Program-made: the position numbers and the translations under genes
Assembly (NCBI GenBank): GCA_022823145.1
Contig: JAJDXS010000078.1
Location: 62,001 to 126,000 of the forward strand
Direction of reading: 5' to 3'
Source: Gemmatimonadota bacterium
GTDB taxonomy: Bacteria > Gemmatimonadota > Gemmatimonadetes > Longimicrobiales > Gaopeijiaceae
Length of the DNA: 64,000 nt
Shown here: positions 5,291-52,021 of the stretch, piece by piece
Position numbering within the stretch: the stretch's first letter is position 1
How the letters are laid out: every line of letters begins with the position of its first letter
Notes under the pieces: model-generated
Seen by the model: only the letters and a program-made list of their open reading frames with translations
Told to the model about the DNA's origin: nothing
Databases searched by the model: none

Positions 5291-6502
5291 ATGCTCACCG
5301 CCTCGGACGTAGACGCCGCACGCACCCGAATCGCGCCGCACGTCGTTCTGACCGGGTGTCCCCAGTCCTTCGCCATCGGCGAGGCGGTCGGCTGCCGGGT
5401 GCAGCTGAAGGCGGAACTGCGGCAGCAGACGGGATCGTTCAAGGACCGCGGGTCGCTCAACAAGCTGCTGCTGCTGAGCCGCGAGCAACGGGAGGCCGGG
5501 GTTGTGGCGGCCAGCGCGGGGAACCACGCCCAGGCGCTCGCCCGGCACGCCGCACGGCTGGGAATCCCCTGCACGATCGTCATGCCGGACACCGCGCCGC
5601 TGATCAAGGTCAGCAACACGCGCGCGAGCGGGGCGAAGGTCATCCAGACCGGAGAGACGCTGTCGGACGGCATGGTCGTGGTGGAGCGCCTGATCGGCGA
5701 GGAGGGCCTCACCCTGGTACACGCCTTCGACGACTTGGCCGTGATGGCTGGGCAGGGCACGATGGGGCTGGAGATCCTCGAGCAGGTGCCGGACGTGAGC
5801 ACCATCGTGGTCCCGGTAGGCGGCGGCGGCATGATCTCGGGCATCGCGACCGCGGTCAAGGCGCGCAAGCCGGACGTGCGCATTGTCGGTGTCGAGGCCG
5901 CCGCGTCTCCCGGTGCGGTGCGGTCGCTCGAGGCGGGAGCTCCCACGCACGTCGAGCTCTCGGACACGCTCGCCGACGGGATCGCGGTGAAGCAGATCGG
6001 CGACCTCGCCTACCCGCATATCGAGGCGTTGGCGGACGACGTCGTGCTGGTCGACGAGGACGAGATCATCCGCGCCATCTTCTTCCTCCTGGAGCGCGAG
6101 AAGCTGGTGGTCGAGGGCGCGGGCGCGGTCGGCGTAGCCGCGATTCTGGAAGGCAGGGCAGGGCTGCGAACCGGAGAGACGGTTGCGTGCGTGCTGTCCG
6201 GCGGCAACATCGACATGAACATGGTGTCGCGGATCATCGACCGCGGCCTCTGGGCCGACGGCCGCCTCGCCAGCCTGTCCGTGGTGGTGCGCGACCGGCC
6301 CGGCTATCTCAACGAAGTCACCGCCGTCGTCGCGATCGAGGGCGCCAACGTGCTCCACATCGAGCACACGCGCGCCTTCGGCGACATCGCGGTGGGCAAG
6401 GTGGGGATCGAGATGAAGATCGAAAGCCGCGGCCGCGACCACGTGGCGGCCATCGTCGCCCACCTGCGCGAGCTGGGGCATCAGGTTGAGGAGGTATTGT
6501 AA
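5291..6502 (+). CDS. ilvA: Threonine ammonia-lyase with C-terminal ACT domain
   Basis: This 403-residue fold-type II PLP enzyme deaminates threonine to 2-oxobutyrate, the first step toward isoleucine. Lys51 in GSFKDRG is the Schiff-base lysine, ASAGNHAQ binds the substrate carboxylate and the GGGGMISG loop near residue 177 holds the PLP phosphate. A single ACT-like domain follows from about residue 325, the layout of the shorter IlvA/TdcB forms that are allosterically controlled by amino acids. The start ATG 5291 follows a GGGGGA stretch and lies 10 bases after sucA, so the two are probably co-transcribed. The TAA stop lies in the left arm of the hairpin at 6497-6537. Confidence 0.93.
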   Translation: MLTASDVDAARTRIAPHVVLTGCPQSFAIGEAVGCRVQLKAELRQQTGSFKDRGSLNKLLLLSREQREAGVVAASAGNHAQALARHAARLGIPCTIVMPDTAPLIKVSNTRASGAKVIQTGETLSDGMVVVERLIGEEGLTLVHAFDDLAVMAGQGTMGLEILEQVPDVSTIVVPVGGGGMISGIATAVKARKPDVRIVGVEAAASPGAVRSLEAGAPTHVELSDTLADGIAVKQIGDLAYPHIEALADDVVLVDEDEIIRAIFFLLEREKLVVEGAGAVGVAAILEGRAGLRTGETVACVLSGGNIDMNMVSRIIDRGLWADGRLASLSVVVRDRPGYLNEVTAVVAIEGANVLHIEHTRAFGDIAVGKVGIEMKIESRGRDHVAAIVAHLRELGHQVEEVL

Positions 6503-6537
6503 AGACGACGCTACATTATGTCATGTTGTCTTTACAA
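6497..6537. terminator. Hairpin between convergent ilvA and the OFA transporter; repeat copy 1
   Basis: The arms TTGTAAAGAC (6497-6506) and GTCTTTACAA (6528-6537) are perfectly complementary. The stem continues inward through GAC/GTT with one G-T wobble on the + transcript. The loop holds TACATTATG. The ilvA stop sits in the left arm and the transporter stop (6521-6523) in the loop. There is no T-tract and the arms are A/T-rich, so it is not a textbook intrinsic terminator. Its place between convergent genes suggests bidirectional termination or 3'-end protection. It is related to the element at 20653-20697. Confidence 0.6.
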
Positions 6538-7822
6538 GTCCATGGCGTTCCAGCGTGTGCGCCAGGGTAGGCCGTCCCAGGCGCATGCGCTCATCATCGA
6601 GCAGGAACGAGAAGATGTAGCCCGCGCCGAGCATCAGAATCCCGATAAGGAAACAGTACATCACGGCCCGGTCGGGATAGACGTCCTTGAGGTACCCGAC
6701 GAAGAGCGGACCGCTGATTCCCGCCGCCGACCACGCGGTGAGAATGGTGCCGTAGATCCTGGACATCTTCTGCGCACCGAAGACCTCCAGGATGAACGAC
6801 GGCATGGTGGCGAATCCGCCGCCGAAGCATAGCAGCACGTAGCAGACCAGCACCGAGAAGACCCAGGGATTGGTCTCGGACATGAGAACCCCGAACACGA
6901 TCATCTGGCTTGCCAGCAGGACCCTGAAGATCATCACCCTTCCGAAGCGGTCGGAGAGCCAGGCCCAGAGTATCCGTCCCACCCCGTTGCAAACGGAACT
7001 CACGGCGATCAGCGTGGCCCCGTACTCGGCCAGCACGGCCGGTTCGAGCGACGGGTCGGAAAGCCCCCAGACCTCCTGCAGCAGCTCGGACTGGAAGCTG
7101 ATGACGGAGATGCCGGCCGCGATGTTGAAGAAGAATACGAGCCACATCACCGCGAACCTGCCGGTGAACAGGTAGGGGCGCGCCGATTCCGTTTCGGCCA
7201 GCGGCCGGGCCGCCCGGGCCGGCGCCCCGGCCTTTGCGGCCGGTTCCTCCTCCGGGTTGCTCAACATCAGGCTGCACGGAATGAGGATGCACGCGAAGAC
7301 GATCCCCAGCCACAGGAACACCGTCGCCAGATCACTGTCGGCCCGCACGACCAGGAACGGCGCGAGCACCTTGCTCAGCAGGAGCGCGCCCACCCCGAAC
7401 CCCATGACCACAATACCGGTTGCCAGACCCCGCATGTCGGGGAACCACTTGGCGACCGTGACGACCGGCGTCACGTACCCCATCCCGATCCCTGCTCCCC
7501 CGATGACGCCATAGCCCAGATAGAAGAGCGTCACGTTGTCGAGCTGGAGGGCCAGCGACGCGATCACGTACCCGGCGCAGAACAGCACGCTGCCGGTCAG
7601 CGCAAGTACGCGGGGCCCCCACTTCGGCAGCATCTGTCCGGCCCAGCCCGCCGAGATCCCGAGAAAGAAGATCGCGAGACAGAACGAGAGCACGGTCTCG
7701 GTGTTGTTCCATCCGTACTGTCGGGCCAGCATCGTCTGGAAGAAGCTCCAGGCGTAGACCGTCCCCAGGCACATCTGCAACATCGTGCAACACAGCGCAA
7801 TGACGGTTCTGGGGACCCGCAT
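6521..7822 (-). CDS. MFS transporter, OFA (oxalate/formate antiporter) family
   Basis: A 433-residue, roughly 12-helix major-facilitator protein. It shows the OFA pattern: first helix ending LGTVYAWSFF, the GxGIGMGYVTPV segment in helix 4, and the FPDMRGLATGIVVMGFG stretch. The central cytoplasmic loop carries an Ala/Glu-rich linker. Known substrates in the family include oxalate, formate, pyruvate and other monocarboxylates; the one here cannot be told. The frame opens at 7867, but that start would overlap the upstream HAMP gene, so ATG 7822, 17 bases after that gene's stop, is preferred. It is the last gene of a three-gene operon behind a solute-binding protein and an orphan sensor. Confidence 0.85.
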   Translation of the reverse strand: MRVPRTVIALCCTMLQMCLGTVYAWSFFQTMLARQYGWNNTETVLSFCLAIFFLGISAGWAGQMLPKWGPRVLALTGSVLFCAGYVIASLALQLDNVTLFYLGYGVIGGAGIGMGYVTPVVTVAKWFPDMRGLATGIVVMGFGVGALLLSKVLAPFLVVRADSDLATVFLWLGIVFACILIPCSLMLSNPEEEPAAKAGAPARAARPLAETESARPYLFTGRFAVMWLVFFFNIAAGISVISFQSELLQEVWGLSDPSLEPAVLAEYGATLIAVSSVCNGVGRILWAWLSDRFGRVMIFRVLLASQMIVFGVLMSETNPWVFSVLVCYVLLCFGGGFATMPSFILEVFGAQKMSRIYGTILTAWSAAGISGPLFVGYLKDVYPDRAVMYCFLIGILMLGAGYIFSFLLDDERMRLGRPTLAHTLERHGLVKTT

Positions 7823-7838
7823 TCGCGAACGCGCCACT

Positions 7839-8564
7839 CTACGGCTCCCGGTCCGCCCCCGCCGCACGGCGGTTCACATGCATGAACAACCGGGCCAGTT
7901 CGCCCGCTTCGTCATCGCGCGAAAGCACGGGTTCATCCCCCGTCGCGCTCTCGCCTCCGGCCATCCGCACGGCGAACGCCAGCAGGTCCGCCAGCGGCTG
8001 CGAAGCCAGGTTCACGAACCAGAAGGTCAGCAGGCTGCCGATCACGAAGATGATGCCGAAGAGGGCCATCTGCGCTCCGATCGCCCTCTGGATCTTCAGT
8101 CCCAGAAGCTCCAGGTCCATGCCCACGTGAACGGTTCCGGCCACCCCGGAGAGGATCGGGGCTCCGACCTCGATGAAGTCGCCCAGCCCCGGCAGGCTCC
8201 GTTCCACTGTCGCGGTCGAAGACGCGTCGCTCGCCAGGATCTCGTCGGGGATACCCGGGACGAACGTGTGGGCGAGAAACTCTCCCGTCTCGCTGGTGAT
8301 GTAGATGTAGCGGATGCTCTCGATCTGGACGAACTGGTCGATGAGCGACTGCAGCGTGGCCAGGTTCCGGTTCAACAGGATGTCCACGCTGGAGTCGGCG
8401 ATGTTCTGCGCGATGCTCCGGCTGTTGCTCTCGTATTCGTCCGAAAGCTCACGCGAGACGGTGGTGATGGACAGGACCGAGACTGAAATCACGATCAGTC
8501 CGAAGAGCGCGAAGAAGAAGAAGCGCGTCTTGCGGAAGAGCTTGTGGACTCTCATGCGGGACAT
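7839..8564 (-). CDS. Cache/HAMP membrane sensor without output domain
   Basis: The 241-residue protein has a basic N-terminus, a first membrane helix (about 15-38), an extracytoplasmic Cache-like domain (about 40-160) with a YIYITSETGEFLAHTF strand pair, a second helix (about 165-187) and a HAMP domain that ends with DEAGELARLF. It stops right after HAMP, where chemoreceptors, histidine kinases and cyclases normally continue, so no output domain is encoded. The ATG lies one base after the stop of the substrate-binding protein gene (TGACATG), which means tight coupling. The transporter gene begins 17 bases downstream, leaving no room for a lost kinase. It may pair with a separate effector or regulate the transporter directly. 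Confidence 0.75.
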   Translation of the reverse strand: MSRMRVHKLFRKTRFFFFALFGLIVISVSVLSITTVSRELSDEYESNSRSIAQNIADSSVDILLNRNLATLQSLIDQFVQIESIRYIYITSETGEFLAHTFVPGIPDEILASDASSTATVERSLPGLGDFIEVGAPILSGVAGTVHVGMDLELLGLKIQRAIGAQMALFGIIFVIGSLLTFWFVNLASQPLADLLAFAVRMAGGESATGDEPVLSRDDEAGELARLFMHVNRRAAGADREP

Positions 8565-8565
8565 G

Positions 8566-9936
8566 TCAGGAGAACTTGGCCTCCCAGTCCTCCAGGGGAA
8601 CGAAGCGGTCCCCCTCGACGACCGTGTAGTAGACGCGCTGCAGGCCCTGGCGGCGCTCCGGCCCGAACGAAACCCGCTCGCCCACGCCGAGGTCGTAGTT
8701 GCGCACCGCGAAGACCGCTTCTTCTATCCCCGACCGCTGCGGATCGTCACCCATCCGCCGGATGATCTCGGTGATCAGCTTGGCGTTCACGAAGCCCTCG
8801 AGGCTCACGAAGCTCTGCGGAAAGGTCTCATAGGGCTCGCCTTCGGTGATCCTCGCCACGTTGTCGGGCGGCGGGGGATCATGGAGCGCCATCATCTCGC
8901 GATACTCGCGCACCGCCGGGAGCGACGTGTCCTCGTAGCTGGGCACGACCTGCGAATTGACCAGCCAGCGGGTGTGGGAATTGGGATCCGCACGTCCTTC
9001 CTGAAGGAGCTGCAGCATGTTCTCGCTCCCCACGAAGGACACGTTGGCCACCGGAATGTGAAGGCCGAGGTCCACCGCGTCGCGGGCGAAGGCGCCGCAC
9101 GCCGCGTACGCACCGATACAGATGACCGCGTCCGGGGATCGTTCCAGCAGAATCTCCACCTGCCCGCGCATGCTGGCGCTGAACTGGGTTCCGCGGGTGT
9201 AGGTCGCCTCGCCGGCGATCGTCTCTCCGTGCCGCGCCAGCGCTTCGCGGACCCCCGCCCAGCCGCTCCGTCCGTAGGCGTCGTTCTGGTAGAAGACCGC
9301 GATCCGCCGCCTGCCGATCCTCACGAAGTTGTCGACCAGTCCCGCCGTCTCCTGCCGGTAGGAAGCGCGCAGATTGAAGGCGAACTCGCCGTACGGGGGC
9401 TCGCGCTGCGGTTCCGCCCCGGTGAAGGGAAAGAAGAGGAAGACCTGCTGGTCGCGAAACGTCTTGAGCACCGGGAGCGCACGGGTGACGGTCGGCGTGC
9501 CCACATAGTTGAACAGCAGGAAGACACTCTCGTCCTGCATGAGTTCGATCGTGTTGGCGACGCACGGGTCCGGCTGATACCCGTCGTCGAGGAGCTTCAT
9601 CACGATCCTGCGGCCGTTCACCCCGCCGTTCTCGTTCAGCTGGTTGAAGTACGCCATCGAGCCGCGGTAGAGCTCGGTCCCGAGGCCGCGGGACGGGCCG
9701 GAGAAGGCGGCCGATACGCCCAGGACGATCTCGTCATCCTGGGGCGGCCTAGACGCGTTCCGCCCCCGTGCCGGGGAGACGCCGGCGCCCGGAACCATCG
9801 AAGCCCCCAGCGACGAAGCCCACGGCGCGGCGAGTAGCGAGGCAAAACCGGACCGGATCAGTGACCTGCGGGTGAGTGCGGGCACGGTGCCATGGGGCCG
9901 ATGCCCCCGCGCACGTGTGCCGTCAGCGTTTTTCAT
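8566..9936 (-). CDS. Tat-exported ABC-type substrate-binding protein (branched-chain amino acid/amide type)
   Basis: This 456-residue periplasmic binding protein belongs to the Peripla_BP_6 (LivJ/amide/urea) group. The N-terminus carries a twin-arginine signal, LTRRSLIRSGFASLL, followed by a cleavable region near residue 50. The mature part opens with EIVLGVSAAFSGPSRGLG and has the GGVNGRRI and LDDGYQPD segments of the family. No permease or ATPase genes lie nearby. Instead it is followed with one-base spacing by a Cache/HAMP protein and then an OFA transporter, so it may act as a ligand receptor for signalling rather than as an ABC importer part. A promoter candidate lies at 10001-10029. Confidence 0.85.
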   Translation of the reverse strand: MKNADGTRARGHRPHGTVPALTRRSLIRSGFASLLAAPWASSLGASMVPGAGVSPARGRNASRPPQDDEIVLGVSAAFSGPSRGLGTELYRGSMAYFNQLNENGGVNGRRIVMKLLDDGYQPDPCVANTIELMQDESVFLLFNYVGTPTVTRALPVLKTFRDQQVFLFFPFTGAEPQREPPYGEFAFNLRASYRQETAGLVDNFVRIGRRRIAVFYQNDAYGRSGWAGVREALARHGETIAGEATYTRGTQFSASMRGQVEILLERSPDAVICIGAYAACGAFARDAVDLGLHIPVANVSFVGSENMLQLLQEGRADPNSHTRWLVNSQVVPSYEDTSLPAVREYREMMALHDPPPPDNVARITEGEPYETFPQSFVSLEGFVNAKLITEIIRRMGDDPQRSGIEEAVFAVRNYDLGVGERVSFGPERRQGLQRVYYTVVEGDRFVPLEDWEAKFS

Positions 9937-10000
9937 GCGAGTTGCCGTGGAACCGTAAGAATGGGGTCATTGGAGGGCCACAAATACCTTACCGGCGGCA

Positions 10001-10029
10001 AATGTAGTCCGCTCCGCCGCGAGCATCAA
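10001..10029 (-). promoter_or_regulatory. Sigma-70-type promoter for the substrate-binding protein operon
   Basis: On the minus strand TTGATG (10029-10024) is followed after exactly 17 bases by TACATT (10006-10001). Transcription would start near 9994, giving a leader of about 58 bases before the ATG at 9936. Confidence 0.5.
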
Positions 10030-10071
10030 CGAAAATCGCGTGATCGTCGTAATTTCGCCGTAATCCTGTCA

Positions 10072-11502
10072 CTATCGCCTCCGAATCTGCCCCCCCGGAA
10101 ACGCCACCACGCTCTCGTTGCCATCCCGGCCCACGGCGGCGACGCCGAAGAGGTAGTTGTCGATCACGAGGCCTTCGAGCGTGAAGCGCGTGGCCTCTCC
10201 GACCCATCGCGAATGCTGCCACCGGGGCGCGGTGGTGTCGCGCCAATAGACCTTGTATCCGACCACACGCGGGTCGTCGACCGCCTCCCACTCGAGTGTG
10301 GTCGACGGTCGCACCGCTCCGCCGATCAGCACGCCGGTGGGGGCCGGGGGGGCCCAGGCCAGCCGCGCCAGCACGGCGGCGTTCAGCGCGGTCATCTTCG
10401 CAGCGTAGTCGAAGTCGACGCCCTCGATGACGTCGCCGTACTCGATCCCGTTCTCGGTGCGGATGTCCTGGTGCTGCCTCGTGTAGTTCTCGTGCGTCTC
10501 CATGATCCGTACCGCCGCGAAGCCCGCGTCGTTGAAGGGGCGGTGGTGGCCGCCGCGGCCGAAGCGGTCGAGCCGGTAGATCATGATGGGGTCGAGGTTC
10601 GGGATGTAGGCGTCGGCGGTCGCGGCCACGTACCGGGCCAGCTGGCGCGACGGTCCGTCGACCTCGCCGCCGAACACGCGGTACCGGGCGCGGTCCTGCT
10701 CCGTGTCGGTGACCGGCGTGGGCTCCGAGAAGACCCGGAAGGTGTTGTTCTCGATCACCCCGTCGACACCCTCGATGTTGCCGATCATGTCGTTGTTCAG
10801 GACGCCGATGATCTCCCAGCTCTCGTCGCGGGCGACTTGCGCCATGTGGCGCCCGCCCCAAAGGCCCTGTTCCTCGCCGGACAACCCGGCCAGGATCACC
10901 GAGTTGCCGAACTCCTGGTCGGCGAGGAGTCTCGCGGCTTCGATCGCACCCGCCATTCCGGATGCGTTGTCGTTGGCCCCGGGGGCGTCGGTTTCGGCAT
11001 CGTTGCCGCTCGATGCGCGCGAATCGATGTCGCCCGACATGATGACGTAATGGTTCGGGTTGACGGTCCCGCGCTTGATTGCCAGGACATTCACGATCCA
11101 GGTGTCGCCGGGGATGCGGGGGCTGAAGTCGGCGGCGACCAGGTTGCGCTGGTACACCACCTCGTAGCAGCCGCCGCAGGCCTCGGAGATGCGGTCGAAC
11201 TCGGCCTTGATCCAGCGGCGGGCCGCACCGATCCCGCGCGTCGCGGACAGCGTGTCGGAGAAGGTGTTGCGGGTGCCGAACCCCGCCAGCATGCGGATGT
11301 CGGCCTCGACCCGCTCGGGAGACGCTGCCTCCACGATGTCGTAGATGCGCGTGTCGATCTGCGGCGGCACCTGCGCGGCGAGCGGGGTCGCAAGTGCGGC
11401 GCCGGCTGCCGCCCAGACGGCCATCGCAGGCGCGCGACACCAGGGGCGGCTGCCCATCACGGGTCGCACACCCGAGGTAAGCCAATCGCGTACGCTGCTC
11501 AA
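10072..11502 (-). CDS. Secreted M28-family metallopeptidase with C-terminal fibronectin III domain
   Basis: A 476-residue exported aminopeptidase-like enzyme. The start is TTG 11502, 7 bases after a perfect AGGAGG; an open frame continues upstream but covers the next gene. The N-terminus then reads as a signal peptide ending LATPLAAQ. Zinc-site segments of M28 enzymes are visible: APGANDNASG, LSGEEQGLWG, NNDMIGN and a late GGHHRPFND. The first ligand motif is SGDIDS rather than the usual SGHxDS, so the first His is Asp. The last 85 residues form an FN3 domain (PTGVLIGG...). The start overlaps the stop of the 65-residue upstream gene as TTGA. Confidence 0.87.
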   Translation of the reverse strand: MSSVRDWLTSGVRPVMGSRPWCRAPAMAVWAAAGAALATPLAAQVPPQIDTRIYDIVEAASPERVEADIRMLAGFGTRNTFSDTLSATRGIGAARRWIKAEFDRISEACGGCYEVVYQRNLVAADFSPRIPGDTWIVNVLAIKRGTVNPNHYVIMSGDIDSRASSGNDAETDAPGANDNASGMAGAIEAARLLADQEFGNSVILAGLSGEEQGLWGGRHMAQVARDESWEIIGVLNNDMIGNIEGVDGVIENNTFRVFSEPTPVTDTEQDRARYRVFGGEVDGPSRQLARYVAATADAYIPNLDPIMIYRLDRFGRGGHHRPFNDAGFAAVRIMETHENYTRQHQDIRTENGIEYGDVIEGVDFDYAAKMTALNAAVLARLAWAPPAPTGVLIGGAVRPSTTLEWEAVDDPRVVGYKVYWRDTTAPRWQHSRWVGEATRFTLEGLVIDNYLFGVAAVGRDGNESVVAFPGGQIRRR

Positions 11503-48558: not shown

Positions 48559-49839
48559 CTAGCGCAGCCGGATCAGTCCCAGCCCCGACTTCTGCCGCCG
48601 GACCCGCCGTCCCGTGGGGGAATGCTCGAGCCGCAGGAGAAGATCGAAGCACTCGGGGGCGGCGGCGGCAACCTGCGGGGTGACCTTCACCACGAGCAGT
48701 GGAACCCGCCCGGCCAGATCGGCCAGCTCCACCAGCACCCGTGGGATGTCCTCACTGTTGAGCTGTTCGAGGCCGGTTGAAAAGACCGCCGATCCCGGCC
48801 CAGTGCCGCACTCGAGCGCCAGTTCCACCATGGCAATCCGGGTCGCCAGCTCGAGGACCGCGATCTCTTCTCCGCCCGCACCCCCGCGTGCTCCTTCCAT
48901 CCAGTCGCTGAAAAGGCCCGGGAACGCTCCCGCAATGCGGCCTCCCGTCAGAGCCACGGCCTTGCGGTGAATTGCGCGCCCTACGCTGCGCCGCGCCGCG
49001 GCCGCCACCTCGGTTCCCATGCCGGCGGCCTCGCGCACGACCTCGGCCGACACGGCGGCAACCTCGGCCCGCAACGCCGCGGCCCGTTGCTCCAGCTGTC
49101 TGACCCGGCGCGGCCTGGACTGCAGCTGGTCGCGCCGGCGGCGCCACCACCGCCCGTCCTGCACGACGACCTCCCATTCCTCTCTTCGCACGGTGCAGAC
49201 CACGCCGGCGTGCTCACCGAGCGGTCGACCACAGCCCGAACAGGCAGCGTCCTCACCATCCTTCTCGATCTGGCGGACACGCTCCCGCAGCTCCCTTTCG
49301 CGATCCCGATAGAGCGATAGCCTCGTCTCGGCGTCCTGCTTCTCGCGGACCCACGCGAGGATACCGGCTTCGGCCGCAGCCTCGGCCGCGGCGGCTCTCT
49401 TCTCCAGTTCGTGGAGGTGCTCCTCGCCCCGGCTCGTGTCGGCCGCCGCCACGCGCCCGCGTTTCCCTCCCGTGCCGCTTTGGCTGCCCATTCGCCTCCG
49501 CTGTTGCTCGAGCGATCCCGCGGCCGACAGCCACACCCTGACGGCACCGGCCCCGAACCACAGCGCGGCGTACTCCTCGCGCCGAATGCCGTGTGCAGCG
49601 AGCAGGGGCGACAGCAGTGCCTCGAAGCCCGGCGTACCGATCCTCACGGGGCCTTTCGGGCCGGAGACGGCCGGACCAGGCCCCGGAAAGTCGCCCGCGC
49701 GGCCGAAGGCGTCCTGGAGGACATCCATGTATTCACGCCAGTCGGCTTCGTCCGCGGCGACAAAGGCGATCAGTCCCCGCTCGTCGCGAAGGTCGATGCC
49801 GGACCTCCGCGTGTTCCCCATCAGGGTCTGGAGCCTCAC
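48559..49839 (-). CDS. Rad50/SbcC/YhaN-like protein lacking Walker motifs (pseudo-ATPase)
   Basis: A 426-residue protein with the outline of a small Rad50/YhaN. The N-terminus (IDLRDERGLIAFVAADEADWRE, residues 16-36) aligns with the beta strand and P-loop of SbcC (pattern GLNVIxGPNEAGKST), but every P-loop Gly/Lys/Ser is replaced. Coiled coils (about 139-199 and 232-290) flank CSGCGRPL at 200-207, a zinc-hook-like CxxC. The C-terminal lobe keeps LTGGR (298-302) and GGEE (322-325) where the ABC signature lies, while the Walker B site reads VFSTGLEQLN, with no acidic pair. ATP binding and hydrolysis are thus unlikely. The GTG start overlaps the nuclease-like gene (GTGA). Confidence 0.75.
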   Translation of the reverse strand: MRLQTLMGNTRRSGIDLRDERGLIAFVAADEADWREYMDVLQDAFGRAGDFPGPGPAVSGPKGPVRIGTPGFEALLSPLLAAHGIRREEYAALWFGAGAVRVWLSAAGSLEQQRRRMGSQSGTGGKRGRVAAADTSRGEEHLHELEKRAAAAEAAAEAGILAWVREKQDAETRLSLYRDRERELRERVRQIEKDGEDAACSGCGRPLGEHAGVVCTVRREEWEVVVQDGRWWRRRRDQLQSRPRRVRQLEQRAAALRAEVAAVSAEVVREAAGMGTEVAAAARRSVGRAIHRKAVALTGGRIAGAFPGLFSDWMEGARGGAGGEEIAVLELATRIAMVELALECGTGPGSAVFSTGLEQLNSEDIPRVLVELADLAGRVPLLVVKVTPQVAAAAPECFDLLLRLEHSPTGRRVRRQKSGLGLIRLR

Positions 49840-50783
49840 GTCCGGGAGACCCCGTCGGGCAGCGCATCGATCCGGAGCTGTGCGACGCGTCGCCGGATCC
49901 GCACCAGAACGTCCCTGTCCAGTGCTGCCAGTTCTCGTGCGGAGAGACCCCTGACGGGAATACGCACGAGCTTCCCGTCGATCCCGCCCGGAACTCCCGC
50001 CAACGCCTCGCCCAATCGACGCGCCACGGTGGCCACCCCGCCCCCCGCGGCGTCGACCGGAGCCAGGCTGACGGCGGCGCGGGCATCGACCGGCGAGAAT
50101 TCCACCCGGCCGGATCCCAGTTCGACGGTCAGAAACCCCTTGTCCACCGCGGCTTCACCCCAGGGATCCGGCCCGATCCTCTCCAGCGAACCCGAATAGT
50201 GCGCGCTTTCGGAGACCTGGGTGCGGACATGGTTCGAACCGAGCGCGACATAGTCCCAGTCACGGAGCCTGACCGGAAGGGCAGGGGCGGTCCCGCTGGC
50301 CAGCGCCGCATGGATCACCAGGACGTTCCACCTGGCGCGGGGGTCGGGCCGCAGACTCGGCAGGCGGGGTGCGGCCACCGCTCCGTGCGGGACCAGCGTG
50401 ACCGCGACCTCCCCCTTTCCGACCTTCAGGCACCGAACCGACGCGGCGGCCACCTCCACGGCCTCCAGTGCTCCCACCACCGAGAGCGGTCCGTGCCGCT
50501 CCGGATCCACGGGCGTGTCTCGGGCGCCGGCCACGATTGCCACCACCACGCCGGGCAGATCCTCGCGCAGCTTCCGCACTTCCCTGGAGAAGACGGCGAT
50601 GGGCGACGCGGTCACATCGGGATGATCGAAGACATCGCCTGCCATCACCACAAGCCCCGGTTCCAGCTCGGCGATCCGGCGAAGCGCCGCCTGGAACACC
50701 CGCAACACGTCGTTCGCCCGCCCCTGTCCACGTCCGGCTCCACCGTATCCGAGGTGAAGATCGGAGAGGTGGGCGACCCTCAT
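49836..50783 (-). CDS. Mre11/SbcD/YhaO-like phosphoesterase fold with altered active site
   Basis: A 315-residue calcineurin-like phosphoesterase protein related to SbcD/YhaO. Motif I LSDLHLG (Asp8, His10), motif II AGDVFDH (Asp50, Asp53), the His158 of VLVIHAAL and the YSGSLERIG capping segment are all present. Motif III, normally GNHD, reads GARD (86-89), so both metal-bridging Asn and catalytic His are lost. The last motif, normally GHxH, reads GSNH (182-185), losing the first His. Nuclease activity is therefore doubtful. ATG 50783 overlaps the stop of the membrane-protein gene (ATGA), and its own stop overlaps the Rad50-like gene, so the two proteins are made together. Confidence 0.78.
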   Translation of the reverse strand: MRVAHLSDLHLGYGGAGRGQGRANDVLRVFQAALRRIAELEPGLVVMAGDVFDHPDVTASPIAVFSREVRKLREDLPGVVVAIVAGARDTPVDPERHGPLSVVGALEAVEVAAASVRCLKVGKGEVAVTLVPHGAVAAPRLPSLRPDPRARWNVLVIHAALASGTAPALPVRLRDWDYVALGSNHVRTQVSESAHYSGSLERIGPDPWGEAAVDKGFLTVELGSGRVEFSPVDARAAVSLAPVDAAGGGVATVARRLGEALAGVPGGIDGKLVRIPVRGLSARELAALDRDVLVRIRRRVAQLRIDALPDGVSRT

Positions 50784-52021
50784 CGCCACTCGTCGCGCCC
50801 CGAGGGCACCTCCGGCGAAACTGTTGTCATCCCGTCGACCGCTTCGGGGGGCGCCTGGGAACGATCGAAGCACCACAACTCGTCGCATCTGGCCGCGAGC
50901 CGCGGAGGCCCGTCGATGCCCAGTCCCGATCCGACATAGCGGCGAAACGCGAAAGTGACCTCCCGGGCGTCCTCGAGCAGGTGTCCCGGGACTCTGCCCC
51001 GGCGACCGCCCACCCAGATCCTTTCGACTCCCGCCTCGCGGAGCGACTTGATTCTCACGGCTGACAACGCCTCGCGCTCGGCGACCACCGTCCACCCCGG
51101 CAGCTCCGGAACCGGGGATAGGGCCAGCCTGGCCTCTTCCCAGCCAAACCCCCGGACGGCGAGTTCGCGTACGTCGCCGTCGGCTTCGAAGAGCTTCCAG
51201 GGTCGGTCGCCATCGACAGGGAACCAGCTGCCGGCGCCGATGAACAGGACTCCGTTGGCGCCCTCGAGAGTGCCCGCCACCCCGATCCGCCAATCGCCGG
51301 TCGGCGCCGGCTCGATGGCACGGTCGGTGCCGCCGTCCCACAGAACGCGCACGGAACGCTCGGGGATTGCGGTCAGCCAACTCTCGAACCGCAACTCCGG
51401 GCGTTCCGGCGTGTCGAGCGTCAGACTTCGCCGCGGCACCCGGTCGAAGATCCATCCCTGGCAACGAGCGCCCGCCGATGCCAGTACGGCGGCACCGAGA
51501 AACACGGTCACGGCGAGTACCGGCTCCCCGAGCAGGGCCAGCATCAATGTGCCCCCGGCGGCCAGGCCCATCGCGCCGCCCGCGAACACCTGGAGTTGCT
51601 CGCCAGTTCCGAGCGAAACCGCGAAACCGTTCATCCGGCCCCACACGCCACCCGCGAAGTAGGCCGGCAAGGCCGAAGTCAGCGCCAGCCCCACGCCCTG
51701 CGCGACGGGAGTGGCCCCGAACCCGTTCATGGTTTCCCACAGCCCGACGAAACCGGCGCCCAGGACCAGCGCCACCAGGAACCCCATCCACCCCCGCGCG
51801 GCCGACGTAACGGTCCTGTCGGAGGCGGCGCTGCTCGCGGCACTGCCCATCAGGATTCCCGTTACCAGGGACACGGCGCTCACCGCGAGGAGCACTCCGC
51901 CCGCGCGCGTCAGCCCACGGGAGTTGTAAAGAAGGATCCCTGCGCCGGTCGCCAGCGCGGCCGCCAGCGCCGTACCGGCCAGAAACGACGGAATCCAGAC
52001 GAGGCGGCGTGCCCGGGTCAT
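50780..52021 (-). CDS. Six-helix membrane protein with soluble C-terminal domain
   Basis: A 413-residue protein. Six membrane helices lie at about 8-32, 40-62, 77-97, 106-128, 143-164 and 167-187, followed by a cytosolic domain of about 225 residues. That domain has VLFIGAGSWFP (258-268), LFEADGDVRELAVRGFGW and GWTVVAEREALSAVR. The order recalls membrane-anchored spermidine-synthase-like proteins, where VLxIGxGxG is followed by an acidic strand end, but the Gly-rich loop is incomplete; I treat this as a weak resemblance. ATG 52021 overlaps the stop of the flavin reductase and its own stop overlaps the Mre11-like gene. Confidence 0.7.
   Translation of the reverse strand: MTRARRLVWIPSFLAGTALAAALATGAGILLYNSRGLTRAGGVLLAVSAVSLVTGILMGSAASSAASDRTVTSAARGWMGFLVALVLGAGFVGLWETMNGFGATPVAQGVGLALTSALPAYFAGGVWGRMNGFAVSLGTGEQLQVFAGGAMGLAAGGTLMLALLGEPVLAVTVFLGAAVLASAGARCQGWIFDRVPRRSLTLDTPERPELRFESWLTAIPERSVRVLWDGGTDRAIEPAPTGDWRIGVAGTLEGANGVLFIGAGSWFPVDGDRPWKLFEADGDVRELAVRGFGWEEARLALSPVPELPGWTVVAEREALSAVRIKSLREAGVERIWVGGRRGRVPGHLLEDAREVTFAFRRYVGSGLGIDGPPRLAARCDELWCFDRSQAPPEAVDGMTTVSPEVPSGRDEWR

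Follow-up and report, generated by a model that had tools for sequence, protein, structure and literature searches.

A Mre11-Rad50-like gene pair lacking nuclease and ATPase motifs, conserved in one family of Gemmatimonadota

The question raised by this locus is what a Mre11-Rad50-like gene pair may be kept for when both partners lack the motifs of catalysis. The two genes lie in the window, the whole stretch of 64,000 nucleotides that was analysed, and they and all their features located below are on its minus strand. Gene D (49836..50783) encodes a Mre11/SbcD-like pseudo-phosphoesterase of 315 aa with an ATG start, and gene C (48559..49839) encodes a Rad50/SbcC-like pseudo-ATPase of 426 aa with a GTG start. 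As a preliminary description of the locus had stated, the two ORFs overlap by 4 bases (49836-49839), where C opens with its GTG and D ends. The partner genes form a single D-C open frame in 24 of 54 named loci, the fused forms being scattered over more than one place on the D tree. We propose that the pair is probably derived from Mre11-Rad50, is non-catalytic and is kept for a tethering or scaffolding role.

D passes the cut-off of the general Pfam Metallophos model (27.7 bits, cut-off 21.5) and stays below the cut-offs of all SbcD/Mre11 models that it matches, TIGR00619 giving E 6.4e-9 and 36 bits against a cut-off of 77.65; C has no match to the Rad50/SbcC models in Pfam and NCBIfam. Alignments of the family D and C proteins were then compared by hhalign with intact pairs of the same gene order from two sister families within the taxonomic order. 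D aligned with intact D with probability 100 and E 2.5e-64, and C aligned with the intact Rad50-like proteins with probability 100 and E 9.6e-40 over the coiled coil, the hook and the C-terminal lobe, with the N-terminal lobe of C left unaligned. Against the PDB, the D profile matched archaeal Mre11 (best E 1.8e-16) and the C profile matched Rad50 weakly (best E 0.012). The predicted structure of C (mean pLDDT 89.7, pTM 0.66) together with Foldseek indicates a head fold with a coiled coil; its best matches are SMC/Rad50 heads, including E. coli SbcC (7yzp, E 4.9e-5), at modest TM-scores of about 0.25-0.42 and rmsd above 10 for the top ten. The model of a fused relative (L154, 834 aa; pLDDT 85.1, pTM 0.82) has M. 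jannaschii Mre11 as its best match (E 2.5e-14) and shows predicted helices between the D part and the C part. D is accordingly described here as a protein with Mre11 homology and a metallophosphoesterase fold, the latter by prediction in that fused relative. The earlier claim that folds and CxxC hook are kept agrees with the profile-profile homology, the predicted models and the invariant hook cysteines described below. Its assignment of the pair to the SbcCD or YhaO-YhaN type stands as far as the Mre11/Rad50 likeness goes, but the pair is closest to the archaeal-type lineage and, as read from the sequences, is not of the YhaO/YhaN type.

Motifs were read in 54 named loci (L117-L196), in a second set of 28 loci and in 8 additional loci; the named loci and the genomes of the 28-locus set (G handles) overlap, so the counts are not independent. 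Row set A1 omits five of the 28 family D loci (the fused L080, L085, L091 and L093 and the partial L113), row set A2 additionally omits L074, L086 and L088, and row set A5 omits five of the 54 named loci (L122, L132, L137, L148 and L168, which are cut or partial). Motif I of D (D8-L-H10, 50754..50762) is kept, each residue in 53/54 named loci, as is D50 of GDVFD in motif II (50634..50636; 53/54). At motif III, GARD (residues 86-89, 50517..50528) replaces GNHD: across the named loci the Asn is present in 0/54, the catalytic His has become Arg (Arg88) in 54/54 and the next residue, Asp89, is kept in 54/54. H158 (50310..50312) is a His in 40/54, and GSNH (residues 182-185, 50229..50240) replaces GHxH, with the first His in 6/54 and the last, H185, in 52/54; the Asn, His158 and the first His of GHxH are found together in none of the 54. 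All 28 loci of the second set lack the GNHD Asn, 27 have Arg-Asp and two have the first His of GHxH, while GxRD was read in the seven of the 8 additional loci whose D was clean and full-length, and again in the first half of a split D (L249). One fused locus, L093 (G031:C183), reads GESE where GxRD is expected, and a second D match lies on another contig of its genome. The two replacements reported for the window are therefore recurrent among the named loci, and this recurrence excludes chance. The same scan of 26 intact relatives found the GNHD His in all 26 and the Asn replaced by Glu in four and by Thr in one; the Asn alone is thus not decisive.

Window D stops at residue 315, which aligns with position 335 of the 384-aa intact form, about 50 residues short. 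We take the missing C-terminal residues to be the Rad50-binding tail, so binding between D and C in the window is an assumption. By the P. furiosus assignment as we assume it, which makes H158 a metal-site His, the losses would presumably abolish the catalytic His together with one metal site, the other site staying in place. GNHD has lost its Asn and His, and GHxH in most cases its first His, so that an ordinary nuclease site with two metals is not expected; D8, H10, D50 and H185 are kept in most D, which leaves room for one bound metal and for some hydrolysis, weak or of altered kind. PMC3175470 names His173, His206, His208 and the GNHD motif. D might on these grounds be a still-active nuclease of altered chemistry, acting without ATP at a one-metal site with Arg88 in the place of either the catalytic His or the second metal. 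The near-universal retention of the four residues of the remaining site suits such an enzyme, and the Arg88-Asp89 pair is held more strictly than drift leaves. We nevertheless consider it unlikely, with the Asn and His of GNHD gone and the three residues of the other site never found together; moreover, L141 and L181 have lost residues of the remaining site as well, and L093 does without the Arg.

The partner protein bears on the same alternative. In C, the former Walker A (AADEADWRE, residues 28-36, 49732..49758) aligns to GPNGAGKST, and the former Walker B/D-loop (SAVFSTGLEQLN, residues 350-361, 48757..48792) aligns to LLILDEVFGSLD. The lack of a P-loop and of Walker B, noted earlier for the window protein alone, recurs among the family's aligned C proteins: the Walker A Lys and the Walker B Asp are absent from 50/50 aligned C sequences, the Lys position being occupied by Arg in 29, Trp in 19, Ser in one and a gap in one, and the Glu that follows the Walker B Asp is aligned in 12/50. 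The Lys, the Asp and the following Glu are all present in 11/11 intact C proteins. The disappearance of the ATPase motifs from C argues further against an active one-metal D, and with the motifs of both partners gone, D-C would be expected to have neither nuclease nor ATPase activity. The window C of 426 aa falls among the complete separate family C proteins (372-509 aa), compared with about 810-814 aa for the intact proteins of the sister families f2 and f3, and the shortening is mainly by loss of coiled coil. The description of the coiled coils as kept is thus correct as to their presence, a short coiled coil being retained, but not as to their extent, 426 aa in C standing against about 814 aa in the intact form.

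Conservation of C peaks at the hook flanks in the motif-less family, whereas in intact C it peaks at the head lobes. Every one of the 19 columns that do not vary among the 50 sequences lies in the hook with its flanks (residues 163-243, 49111..49353); the CSGC zinc-hook motif (49231..49242) has C200 and C203 invariant in 50/50, and the adjacent QDGRWW (49144..49161) has Q227, D228, G229, W231 and W232 invariant in 50/50. QDGxWW also stands next to the hook in 7/11 intact f2/f3 C proteins, and QDGxW occurs in 5/5 f9 loci against 0/6 f4/f5 loci. Because this feature is common to intact relatives, the family seems to have retained a hook tip that it already had while the engine was dropped. PMC6969161 proposes the Rad50 hook as a rather stable dimerisation interface, and the hook of C would by its cysteines be expected to bind zinc and to mediate dimerisation.

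The origin of the motif-less form was approached through its intact relatives. All 54 motif-less sequences cluster in a single clade (support 100/100) of an 88-row D tree, for which the tree tool warned of long branches; by this tree the motif loss was probably a single event. Among the matches listed for 395 genomes of the phylum, full-length family members reach at least 315 bits, against 268 for the top-scoring match from outside the family, and some of the partial D matches within the family fall under 315. Eleven loci fetched outside the family all have GHxH and, in the next gene, a P-loop; the motif III pattern matched in 10, one of which reads GEHD, and did not match in the eleventh. 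A survey of 154 genomes of the order gave 21 D genes, of which all 20 besides L108 keep GNHD and GHxH. L108 (G054), from a sister family, combines a D gene (8912-10075, minus strand) reading GDRD and GHHP with a C gene (6499-8907, minus strand) that has an intact P-loop and Walker B; it is placed as sister to the motif-less clade (98/93), at a point where the tree tool warns that long branches meet. L108 may represent an evolutionary intermediate in which the nuclease was lost first.

Neighbourhoods were compared by tblastn with eight window genes. Among 16 sister-family loci, many of them cut short, the flavin reductase was found in 8, trpE in 7 and DUF2723 in 5; at least one window neighbour is present at 12/16, and neighbours are present on both sides at 5/16 (L101, L103, L105, L108 and L111). 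Of 26 other intact loci, 25 are without any of the eight genes and one has DUF2723 alone. As intact pairs occur in sister families and several of them have the same neighbourhood, the loss probably took place in situ, a conclusion that we regard as well supported. Horizontal import of an odd paralogue is disfavoured by the neighbourhood common to intact pairs and by the tree.

The pair is widespread in the window's family: D is matched in 95/121 genomes and 29/40 genera, the 95 being profile matches at E 1e-20 or better and not motifs checked genome by genome. Among 59 relatives searched at E 0.001, 46 have D matches and 43 have C matches, the intact pairs of sister families being counted in. 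D has no match in any of the 11 listed genomes of genus g12 (G033, G059-G068), and the D profile search of the family genomes likewise gave none in G009, G011 and G030; the pair is therefore dispensable. D-C is under purifying selection. In nine pairs each, D has dN/dS values of 0.12-0.22 and C of 0.13-0.46, while wrong reading frames of the same DNA give 1.4-5.7, and the D and C differences between relatives are mostly at third positions. The C pair at 0.46 has a dS of just 0.085, and the C pair at 0.32 is distant. Six neighbouring genes, compared with two close relatives only, gave 0 to 0.21, and the flavin reductase control in an ungapped alignment gave 0.18-0.20; set against the values for these neighbours, the 0.32 and 0.46 indicate that C is less constrained in some pairs.

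These figures decide how much weight can be given to the idea that the pair is a decaying relic, a pseudogene remnant of a lost Mre11-Rad50 pair. Both genes have lost their catalytic motifs, a match is missing from some genera, and one C pair reaches 0.46, all as decay would have it; a D gene split over two frames in G115 could be cited as well. With dN/dS between 0.12 and 0.46, changes concentrated at third positions, matches spread over 29/40 genera, hook cysteines that do not vary and gene fusions that stay in frame, however, we hold a relic to be highly improbable, and the pseudogene reading is disfavoured. The split gene itself, at L249, runs across two reading frames and reflects either a real break or an assembly error. 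The preliminary description had seen selection on a non-catalytic complex rather than decay, and the single clade, the breadth of D matches, the dN/dS values, the hook cysteines and the fusions in 24/54 loci favour that view. It had also held that this copy would count as decayed if homologues retaining the motifs turned up in the same gene order. Such homologues do exist in the sister families, yet decay is not thereby shown: purifying selection has preserved the motif-less form across genera.

The window pair is not the SbcCD of its own genome, which is intact and located on another contig: contig C13 (G000:C13) carries a canonical SbcC of 1052 aa with GDTGAGKSS and LFLDEGFGSLD, and an SbcD with GNHD. 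Read from sequence, this SbcC (L209, 3799-6957, minus strand) and its adjoining SbcD ORF lie near an ORF resembling a HerA-type ATPase, and a genus relative (G021) has a YhaN/YhaO-like pair at L210 (1200-3848 and 3689-5449, both minus strand). Weak, YhaO-like matches to the SbcD model of the kind given by L210 occur in many family genomes. The family genome G091, besides the motif-less pair, has an additional, more distant D match at L251 (G091:C160); the ORF next to that match has a Walker B-like LLILDEPF and no match to the P-loop pattern.

Coexistence with canonical systems raises the possibility that the pair regulates an active SbcCD or YhaNO, or acts as its dominant-negative partner, through hook or subunit exchange. 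Every genome of the window's genus (23/23) has a TIGR00619 match over the cut-off, as do G030 and G033, and 21 of the 23 have a D match as well as this canonical SbcD, which suits such a regulator. The cut-off is passed in 0/10 other family genomes searched, seven of which have a D match and two more a C match, and G030 and G033 possess canonical SbcD with neither a D nor a C match. From the ten genomes it follows that the pair cannot be taken as just an extra copy accompanying SbcCD and that no such partner is generally present, barring the weaker YhaO-like matches; the regulator is in our judgement distinctly unlikely.

The gene upstream of D was considered as a third component. It encodes a predicted membrane protein (50780..52021, minus strand), overlaps D by 4 bases and is perhaps co-transcribed with D-C in the window. 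It is matched in 31/54 named loci and unmatched in 23, some of which are cut short; with a match in only 31, it is probably not an obligatory part of the pair. Together with this protein, for instance, D-C could form a metal- or zinc-responsive, or a phosphate- or nucleotide-binding, sensor-scaffold with no role at DNA. The one metal site and the zinc hook that have been kept would fit a sensor, and so would the overlapping membrane protein gene where it occurs; the loci without a match to it and the fact that the known relatives are DNA repair proteins make this very unlikely. A defence system was rejected, since PADLOC returned weak matches only: LmuB for C (E 8.5e-5), in the stretch of predicted coiled coil and hook at residues 152-265, and for D a CARF model (E 0.013), with no match for the membrane protein. 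The PHROGs matches had E values of 0.072 (D) and 0.035 (C).

The favoured reading, a non-catalytic tether or scaffold, leads to the following model. In the ancestor of one Gemmatimonadota family, an archaeal-type Mre11-Rad50 pair would have become a non-catalytic complex without changing its place in the genome. The Mre11-like subunit would have a broken nuclease site, with the four residues of what we assume to be one metal site mostly left, and the Rad50-like subunit would have lost the Walker A Lys, the Walker B Asp and most of the coiled coil, keeping a head-like fold, a short coiled coil and the hook tip. Two such arms might be joined at the hook, each with one Mre11-like domain, which gene fusion would tie to its arm in many relatives. 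The complex would then hold DNA or a partner protein independently of ATP and leave it uncut. Binding of DNA or a partner by D-C, and with it the role as tether or scaffold, is what we infer from this arrangement.

The loss of the enzyme motifs and the retention of the shape and the zinc-hook tip suggest that the hook-and-tether part is useful alone. The hook tip may be the functional end of an ATP- and nuclease-free derivative, and hence of a new kind of Rad50-like DNA-bridging or scaffold protein, a suggestion that we offer tentatively as something near an even chance. Work on Rad50 and Mre11 usually relies on point mutants in which one activity is abolished; in this pair, evolution took the motifs of both activities, and selection kept the folds, the short arms and the hook. 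If the complex is truly inactive, the structural part of Mre11-Rad50 would be worth keeping by itself, and the pair would offer a compact ATP-free system for studying hook-tip binding and the need of tethering for ATP. It would be a separation of functions achieved by nature and maintained across one bacterial family, with a hook tip that is already present in intact relatives.

Searches of one open-access full-text library, which leaves out most subscription papers, turned up no description of a double Mre11-Rad50 pseudoenzyme. For the phosphoesterase alone there are precedents, the DNA polymerase B subunits and Vps29 having the phosphoesterase fold with the catalytic residues lost and being kept as structural subunits; unlike D, they are not known to have a Rad50-like partner that is also stripped of its ATPase motifs. 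E. coli-type SbcCD likewise consists of a phosphoesterase and an SMC-like coiled-coil protein with a CxxC hook, but its catalytic motifs are present. Fusions of Mre11 and Rad50 are known from Mimivirus R555 and others, in which, according to PMC3175470, the Mre11-like domain is N-terminal to the Rad50-like one. This is the domain order of the fused D-C proteins of the 24 relatives. The same paper has R555 keeping Walker A and Walker B and, two exceptions aside, the nuclease residues (PMC3175470), so R555 retains the ATPase and most nuclease residues where the fused family D-C has lost both sets. The closest likeness is to the intact archaeal-type Mre11-Rad50 of the sister families f2 and f3 and of family f9 in the same phylum, which has its gene order, folds and CxxC hook in common with the window pair. 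Several f2/f3 intact loci have the flavin reductase upstream and trpE/DUF2723 downstream, as at the window pair. The archaeal-type intact pair, of about 384 and 814 aa, has GNHD, GHxH, the P-loop and Walker B, whereas the window pair, of 315 and 426 aa, has lost all four.
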